Shown: positions 30,556-32,489 of the stretch, in pieces | Layout: every line of letters begins with the position of its first letter | How positions within the stretch are numbered: the first letter of the stretch is position 1 | NCBI RefSeq assembly: GCF_001267405.1 | Contig: NZ_CP012369.1 | Span: 1,700,001 to 1,764,000, forward strand | Source of the DNA: Moorella thermoacetica | Lineage (GTDB): Bacteria > Bacillota > DSM-521 > Neomoorellales > Neomoorellaceae | Direction of reading: 5' to 3' | DNA: 64,000 nucleotides | The notes under the pieces: model-generated | Database searches by the model: none | Told to the model about the DNA's origin: nothing | Seen by the model: the letters and a program-made list of their open reading frames with translations, nothing else | Program-made: the position numbers and the translations under genes

Positions 30556-31386
30556 TTGGACTTTCTATCCATCATCTGGATTATCTTTATTATCTCGGCC
30601 TTCTTACCTATGATCCACCAGCGGCGGATTGAAGCAGCCCGCCTGCACCTCATCAAAACCTTTGAAAAAAGGCGGAACTCCCGCCTGGTCACCCTCATCC
30701 ATCGCCAGGAGGCCCTGAGCTTTCTGGGCATTCCCCTGAGCCGCTATATCAATATTGAGGATTCCGAACAAATCCTCCGGGCCATCCGCCTGACCCCCGA
30801 TGATATGCCCATCGACCTGGTTCTCCATACCCCGGGGGGCCTGGTCCTGGCGGCCGAACAGATTGCCCACGCCATCTTAAAGCACCCGGCCAAAGTTACC
30901 GTATATGTCCCCCACTACGCCATGTCCGGGGGCACCCTCATCGCCCTGGCGGCCGATGAGATCGTCATGGACGAAAACGCCGTCCTGGGGCCTGTAGACC
31001 CCCAGCTGGGCGAGTACCCGGCGGCCTCGATTATCAAGGTTATCGAGGAAAAGGATAAAAATAAGATCGACGACCGTATCCTCATCCTGGGCGACATTGC
31101 CCGCAAGGCCATGAATCAGGTCCGGGAGAGCCTGGTGGAACTCCTGGCTGAGAAAATGGAACGCCAGCGGGCCGAGGAACTGGCTACAGTTTTTAGTGAG
31201 GGCCGCTGGACCCACGACTACCCCATCGGTGTGGACCAGTTGATTAAAATGGGCCTCCCGGTGAAAACCGGCCTGCCCCGGGAGATATACCAGCTCATGG
31301 AACTTTATCCCCAGCCGGCCAGCCGCCGGCCTTCGGTGCAGTATGTACCCCTCCCCTACAGCCGTCGCGATGGTCAGCGGGATTAA
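30556..31386 (+). CDS. SDH-family (SppA/ClpP-like) membrane serine protease
   Basis: 276 aa. One N-terminal membrane segment (FLSIIWIIFIISAFLPMI), then a crotonase-like protease domain: DLVLHTPGGLVLAAEQIA, catalytic Ser in PHYAMSGGTLIALAADEIVMD, and VLGPVDPQLGEYPA. This matches PF01972 (serine dehydrogenase proteinase), related to signal-peptide peptidase. A membrane-anchored, cytoplasm-facing protease is expected. TTG start at 30556 follows GGAGGT. Confidence 0.87.
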   Translation: MDFLSIIWIIFIISAFLPMIHQRRIEAARLHLIKTFEKRRNSRLVTLIHRQEALSFLGIPLSRYINIEDSEQILRAIRLTPDDMPIDLVLHTPGGLVLAAEQIAHAILKHPAKVTVYVPHYAMSGGTLIALAADEIVMDENAVLGPVDPQLGEYPAASIIKVIEEKDKNKIDDRILILGDIARKAMNQVRESLVELLAEKMERQRAEELATVFSEGRWTHDYPIGVDQLIKMGLPVKTGLPREIYQLMELYPQPASRRPSVQYVPLPYSRRDGQRD

Positions 31387-31492: not shown

Positions 31493-31837
31493 TTAAATGC
31501 GGTACTGAGGTATACCACCCATCTGGGGCTGGCCCATGAAGGCACCGCCAGCCATACCGACCTGCTGCAGGCGCTGGTGCTCCTGTTGCATACGCTGCTG
31601 CAGCTGGCTGATCTCCTGCTGGCTGGCCAGATTCAACTGGTACCAGCCCCTGGCGTGCATGACATCCCATACTGCCTTCAGGCAATTTTGTTCATCCTGG
31701 TAAACAGCCATGAAATCCCGCCGCAACTGATCATTGGCGCATTCAGTAATGGCCGTGTTGTAGCAACTGGTTAAGAGCTTTTCGCTGGCCAGGCAATCGC
31801 TAAAAATACTCTTATCATCGAATCCCTGGATGGGCAT
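31493..31837 (-). CDS. CotF-family spore coat protein
   Basis: 114 aa. Coat F domain (PF07875 type): DDKSIFSDCLASEKLLTSCYNTAITECANDQLRRDFMAVYQDEQ, a two-helix ferritin-like segment, then Gln-rich helix and Gly/Met/Gln tail. Expected in the mother-cell spore coat. Directly follows a smaller relative. Confidence 0.88.
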   Translation of the reverse strand: MPIQGFDDKSIFSDCLASEKLLTSCYNTAITECANDQLRRDFMAVYQDEQNCLKAVWDVMHARGWYQLNLASQQEISQLQQRMQQEHQRLQQVGMAGGAFMGQPQMGGIPQYRI

Positions 31838-32140: not shown

Positions 32141-32172
32141 AAAAATAACCAGGCCGGGGCGGGTCCCCGGCC
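32141..32172 (-). terminator. Terminator after the selenoglutaredoxin gene
   Basis: GGCCGGGG paired with CCCCGGCC, followed on the minus strand by TGGTTATTTTT. Confidence 0.8.
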
Positions 32173-32181
32173 AGTGCAGGC

Positions 32182-32418
32182 TTAGTGCAAGATTTTTTGC
32201 AAGCGGGTCTCATCGAAGCCGACCATTACCTGGCCGTTGACCACCAGGGTGGGCACCGCTGTCTGGCCTGTGCGCCGGTACATCTCTTCCCGGGCCTGCT
32301 CATCGGTGGTGATGTCCTTTTCCTCGTAGTCAACGCCATGACGGGAAAGATACTCTTTCACCGTAGCGCAACTGGGTCAGGTCGGGGTGGTATAAACGAT
32401 GACGTTGTCTTCAGGCAT
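32182..32418 (-). CDS. Selenocysteine-containing glutaredoxin (in-frame TGA)
   Basis: 78 aa read from ATG 32418 to TAA 32182 with one in-frame TGA at 32377-32379. The protein is glutaredoxin/NrdH-like: strand NVIVYTTP, active site TPT-U-PSC where TGA replaces the first Cys of CxxC, then VPTLVVNGQVMVGFDE with the cis-Pro and the C-terminal glutathione/thiol-groove motif. The reading frame stays open and family-like on both sides of the TGA, and a SECIS-like hairpin follows it. A redox-active selenol should speed disulfide reduction. GGAGGTG lies 17 nt from the ATG, unusually far. The gene is easily missed because the TGA splits it. Confidence 0.85.
32333..32379 (-). promoter_or_regulatory. Candidate bacterial SECIS element after the TGA
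   Basis: The mRNA after UGA can fold as GCGC-U-ACGG-(U)-G-AAAG-AGUAU-CUUU-C-CCGU-(C)-A-(UG)-GCGU. It has a single bulged U five pairs below an apical loop containing GU, the two features SelB recognises in bacterial SECIS hairpins. The fold was drawn by hand. Confidence 0.65.
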
Positions 32419-32489
32419 AGTTTAAAAAGCACTCGCACCTCCCGGCTGATTTTTTATTTAGTCTGCCGGGAATAGCAAGTATTTATGCC

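Follow-up and report, generated by a model that had tools for sequence, protein, structure and literature searches.

Six selenoproteins have been described from Moorella thermoacetica, namely SelD, two FdhA proteins, HdrA, FrhD and a glutaredoxin (Zhang et al. 2006, PMC1794560), and the selenoprotein glutaredoxin of this organism is already known rather than newly found. The gene analyzed here comes from the same species. As the only PF00462 match with a TGA in the genome, it is almost certainly the gene of the 2006 study, an identity that we infer for a published table listing no coordinates and for a strain that was presumably ATCC 39073; this strain and DSM 521T differ by 992 SNPs (PMC4599090). 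Taken by itself, the gene contributes little to what the 2006 selenoproteome had established.

A characterized member of the UxxC class is the selenoprotein glutaredoxin of Clostridium (Alkaliphilus) oremlandii, which reduces a selenoprotein MsrA (Kim et al. 2011, as cited in PMC13188914 and PMC4333827). The M. thermoacetica gene also encodes a UxxC motif, and the best PDB sequence matches of its product, 7c10 and 7c12/7c13 (named glutaredoxin), have VKE-LS and AVP...VGFD in common with it. We take these entries to be the C. oremlandii protein. The two systems differ in the partner: a genome search returned no match for MsrA in M. thermoacetica, so the substrate must differ from that of the C. 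oremlandii enzyme, and MsrA was rejected as a partner. At the family level, the Moorella protein scores above the curated cut-offs of both NCBIfam TIGR02196 (GlrX_YruB; 93.0 bits against 88.55) and NF041212 (Uxx_star; 68.7 bits against 66), with both alignments running across the TGA, and no feature was found that separates it from either family. The naming of NF041212 varies: it appears as the HUGP/GUXX-star fusion in a 2026 review table (PMC13188914), but as Uxx_star in NCBIfam 20.0, where NF045501 is the fusion.

The window analyzed is a 64,000-nucleotide stretch (positions 1,700,001-1,764,000) of the single 2,527,564-bp contig that constitutes the genome searched. The gene lies on the minus strand at 32182..32418 (start ATG 32418-32416, stop TAA 32184-32182). 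With TGA translated as selenocysteine (Sec), it encodes 78 residues, MPEDNVIVYTTPTUPSCATVKEYLSRHGVDYEEKDITTDEQAREEMYRRTGQTAVPTLVVNGQVMVGFDETRLQKILH; without recoding, the product would be 13 residues long. The TGA, at residue 14 (32377..32379, minus strand), is the sole interruption of the frame and falls on the first active-site Cys of the glutaredoxin-like motif (TPT-U-PSC). The resolving-Cys codon TGC, residue 17 of UxxC, is at 32368..32370 on the same strand, and its column is invariant in an alignment of 24 proteins (A1). The Pfam Glutaredoxin profile (PF00462) aligns straight across the TGA at 76.7 bits (cut-off 22.9). Scanning the entire window for frames joined by a TGA gave 16 candidates, among which, by inspection, this gene alone combines a recognizable family with a SECIS-like hairpin. 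A first-pass annotation, made by reading the raw sequence without tools, had placed a 78-codon glutaredoxin frame broken only by this TGA at the same position; locus and frame proved correct, and the strand, which it left unstated, is the minus strand. Ordinary gene callers tend to truncate recoded UGA genes of this kind, and the tool-less reading correctly identified the recoded residue, its hairpin and the need for Sec machinery.

A candidate bSECIS hairpin within the coding sequence (ACGG-U-GAAAG-AGUAU-CUUUC-CCGU; 24 nt, 32341..32364, minus strand) starts 12 nt after the TGA. RNAfold adds one A-U pair, leaving a GUA triloop. The hairpin fits the published bSECIS model (PMC13188914) in each of its four constraints: the apical loop is AGUAU or GUA, the stem has 5-6 bp plus lower pairs (model: upper stem of 4-16 bp), the distance from the UGA to the apical loop, counted on the sequence, is 22-23 nt (model: 16-37 nt), and the 25-nt core folds at about -9.9 kcal/mol (model: MFE <= -7.5 kcal/mol). 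The interval to which the first-pass annotation had assigned a hand-drawn hairpin, 32333-32379, folds at -16.1 kcal/mol (z = -2.57; 3 of 200 shuffles equal or better). This z-score is modest alone, and it is conservation, that is, the TGA in 23 relatives and the near-invariant hairpin codons, that takes the element beyond chance. Among sequence pairs of 21 TGA-bearing homologues, same-residue codon identity is 0.95 at codons +5 to +10 after the TGA versus 0.45 elsewhere, so that synonymous sites are frozen only in the hairpin. None of the six Cys homologues found in the first survey has the hairpin. The bulged U that had been read as a bacterial SECIS feature is neither defining nor conserved: among 25 distinct hairpins it pairs with an A in seven, a C-G pair takes its place in one, and the published model omits it from its features (PMC13188914). 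In the same 25 hairpins one pair changed on both sides, a count not clearly above controls and uninformative because the stem barely varies. An Rfam scan of the region at permissive thresholds returned no SECIS family at the gene and only chance-level matches elsewhere.

The distribution of the TGA codon bears directly on whether it is a true stop. In the standard code TGA is a stop, and the short unrecoded product would fit a nonsense mutation that killed a Cys glutaredoxin. However, in a survey of 60 relatives the gene with its TGA is present in all 10 same-genus genomes and in five of seven same-family genomes, and the TGA occupies the same codon in 23 relatives across genera and families. 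It aligns with the catalytic Cys of the Cys homologues. In the closest pairs dN is far smaller than dS both before and after the TGA, so that each flank is under purifying selection, and the decay in close relatives that would mark a dying gene is not seen, as the ten congeners keep both the TGA and the frame. Synonymous freezing confined to the hairpin also argues against a pseudogene, and with frame, TGA and hairpin all conserved this explanation was rejected as extremely improbable. A sequencing or assembly error turning TGC or TGT into TGA would take a single base, but the identical TGA recurs in many independent assemblies, and coverage was 382-fold if the genome is that of DSM 521T (PMC4599090). 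This explanation was likewise rejected, its probability being practically nil. In all probability the locus holds a functional selenoprotein gene of the UxxC class rather than a pseudogene or an error. The nearest named relative, M. thermoacetica DSM 21394, carries a 91% identical protein and was the only close relative recovered from a scan of genome contigs; distant blastn against a plasmid collection gave no match.

The Sec machinery of the genome provides further evidence. The first-pass annotation had made activity of the gene depend on selAB and selC elsewhere in the genome and had proposed a search for selA, selB, selC and selD, and all four components were located: SelA (625.8 bits, cut-off 267.9), SelB (394.5 bits, cut-off 242.25), SelD (399.4 bits, cut-off 125) and a tRNA-Sec with anticodon TCA. 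The selA gene adjoins selB, and the tRNA-Sec gene lies ~4.8 kb from selB. The five genes between selA-selB and tRNA-Sec resemble, by eye, a branched-chain amino acid ABC transporter (L042 3577-11918, G000:C1:2498000-2512000). The C-terminal 258 residues of SelB match 1lva/2uwm, named selenocysteine-specific elongation factor (E 7e-167, 560 bits), and the solved chains 2ply, 2v9v and 1wsu also score very highly against this part. All of these structures are presumably of M. thermoacetica SelB, some in complex with SECIS RNA.

The amino acid inserted cannot be shown by sequence alone, and decoding of the UGA by near-cognate readthrough, or its reassignment to another amino acid, would leave the same frame. 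Against this stand the full Sec machinery, the fit of the hairpin to SECIS constraints, and the presence in the same genome of two FdhA (formate dehydrogenase) genes and selD, each with an in-frame TGA (one in selD) followed by a hairpin, with loops around GGUC and CGGG. The TGA also co-occurs with SelB. Among 299 genomes sampled evenly across the phylum, a family member was found in 109, part with and part without the TGA; in a set of 68 of these 109, SelB is present in all 34 that bear the TGA and in 13 of the 34 that have Cys only (Fisher's test, p about 1e-8, genomes being counted as independent). One TGA-bearing congener outside this set (G007) has no SelB above the cut-off in a genome that is only 58% complete. 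Machinery, co-occurrence and hairpin together led to the rejection of non-Sec decoding, to which we assign a very low probability. It is highly likely, judging from sequence, that the locus is a functional bacterial selenoprotein gene of the UxxC type, in which UGA-14 would be read as Sec through SelB and the hairpin and whose product would act as a glutaredoxin-fold selenol-thiol oxidoreductase, both Sec insertion and catalytic cycle being predicted.

The family as a whole is a mixture of Sec and Cys forms. A tree of 39 homologues, seven of them Cys rows, requires no fewer than six changes of the Sec label; support is weak for most of its deep forks. The Moorella group is entirely Sec. The label shows no more clustering on the tree than shuffled labels do (172 of 500 shuffles equally low), and switching therefore looks frequent, subject to the weak deep forks and the seven Cys rows. 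In two Cys homologues, L073 (TGC) and L062 (TGT), the hairpin, or much of it, persists just downstream (GGTGAAAGAGTTTCTTTCC and GGTGAAAGAATTTCTTTCA, respectively), and both genomes encode SelB. These are probable recent Sec-to-Cys switches that retain a relic SECIS. Relic SECIS elements are known from other families (Zhang et al. 2006, PMC1794560), and the present comparative set should be useful for studying Sec/Cys switching.

An AlphaFold2 model (mean pLDDT 89.6) predicts a thioredoxin-type fold of element order E-H-E-H-E-E-H. The U/CxxC motif is placed where helix 1 starts, and residue 14 comes just before this helix (15-26). Sec-14 and Cys-17 most likely form a selenol-thiol pair that reduces disulfides. 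In the proposed mechanism, SelB carrying Sec-tRNA(Sec) would bind the hairpin inside the coding sequence, and because this complex sits on the hairpin the ribosome would insert Sec at UGA-14. Sec-14 of the finished protein would then attack a substrate disulfide or an oxidized thiol, Cys-17 would resolve the mixed selenenylsulfide, and a reductase would regenerate the Sec-14/Cys-17 pair.

Two electron donors can be considered for the last step. The match to Pfam Glutaredoxin, together with matches below cut-off to TIGR02181 and NF007923 (glutaredoxin 3), would suit a classical glutathione-dependent enzyme. However, glutamate-cysteine ligase, the only low-molecular-thiol route searched, has no PF04262 match in the genome, and the sequence after the cis-Pro is VGFD, unlike the GGCDD of E. 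coli Grx3. Some Cys homologues are also encoded next to trxB-like genes: thioredoxin-reductase-like genes occur close to three of them, one above the TIGR01292 cut-off (L029) and two below it (L026, L031). A Sec homologue (L022) lies by a B12-type ribonucleotide reductase gene and a gene that by eye is thioredoxin-like. Lack of glutamate-cysteine ligase and MsrA matches, combined with this gene context, favors a redoxin that receives its electrons from thioredoxin reductase. The donor is thus somewhat more probably a flavoenzyme of the thioredoxin-reductase type than glutathione, and glutathione dependence appears unlikely. A wider reading, possible but on the doubtful side, is that the family SECIS is an RNA motif of 16-18 nt (GGUGAAAGAGUNUCUUUC) that has hardly changed across divergence at the phylum level, and that the family as a whole consists of glutathione-free selenol redoxins fed by thioredoxin reductase. 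If this were true, the constraint on the RNA would help to fix the protein residues VKE(Y/F)LS.

The genomic neighborhood in Moorella contains a class-III aminotransferase and a spore Coat F protein and gives no pointer to the substrate. A probable intrinsic terminator, with eight GC pairs followed by a T-rich tail, was found by a pattern scan just after the stop codon (32152..32172, minus strand); shuffled sequence yields 0.7 such patterns on average against the one observed, so it is weak taken alone. Upstream, in 32418-32443 (minus strand), a single strong Shine-Dalgarno-like match, GGGAGG, lies 19 nt before the ATG. The spacing is similarly long in L004 and L005 and ~7 nt in other Moorella; with GGGAGG further from the ATG than in these, translation may be modest. 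Downstream of the glutaredoxin gene lie the Coat F spore protein gene (window 31493-31837) and a gene for a ClpP-like SDH-type serine protease (30556-31386). In many Moorellaceae loci, too, the gene is followed by a protein that by eye resembles Coat F.
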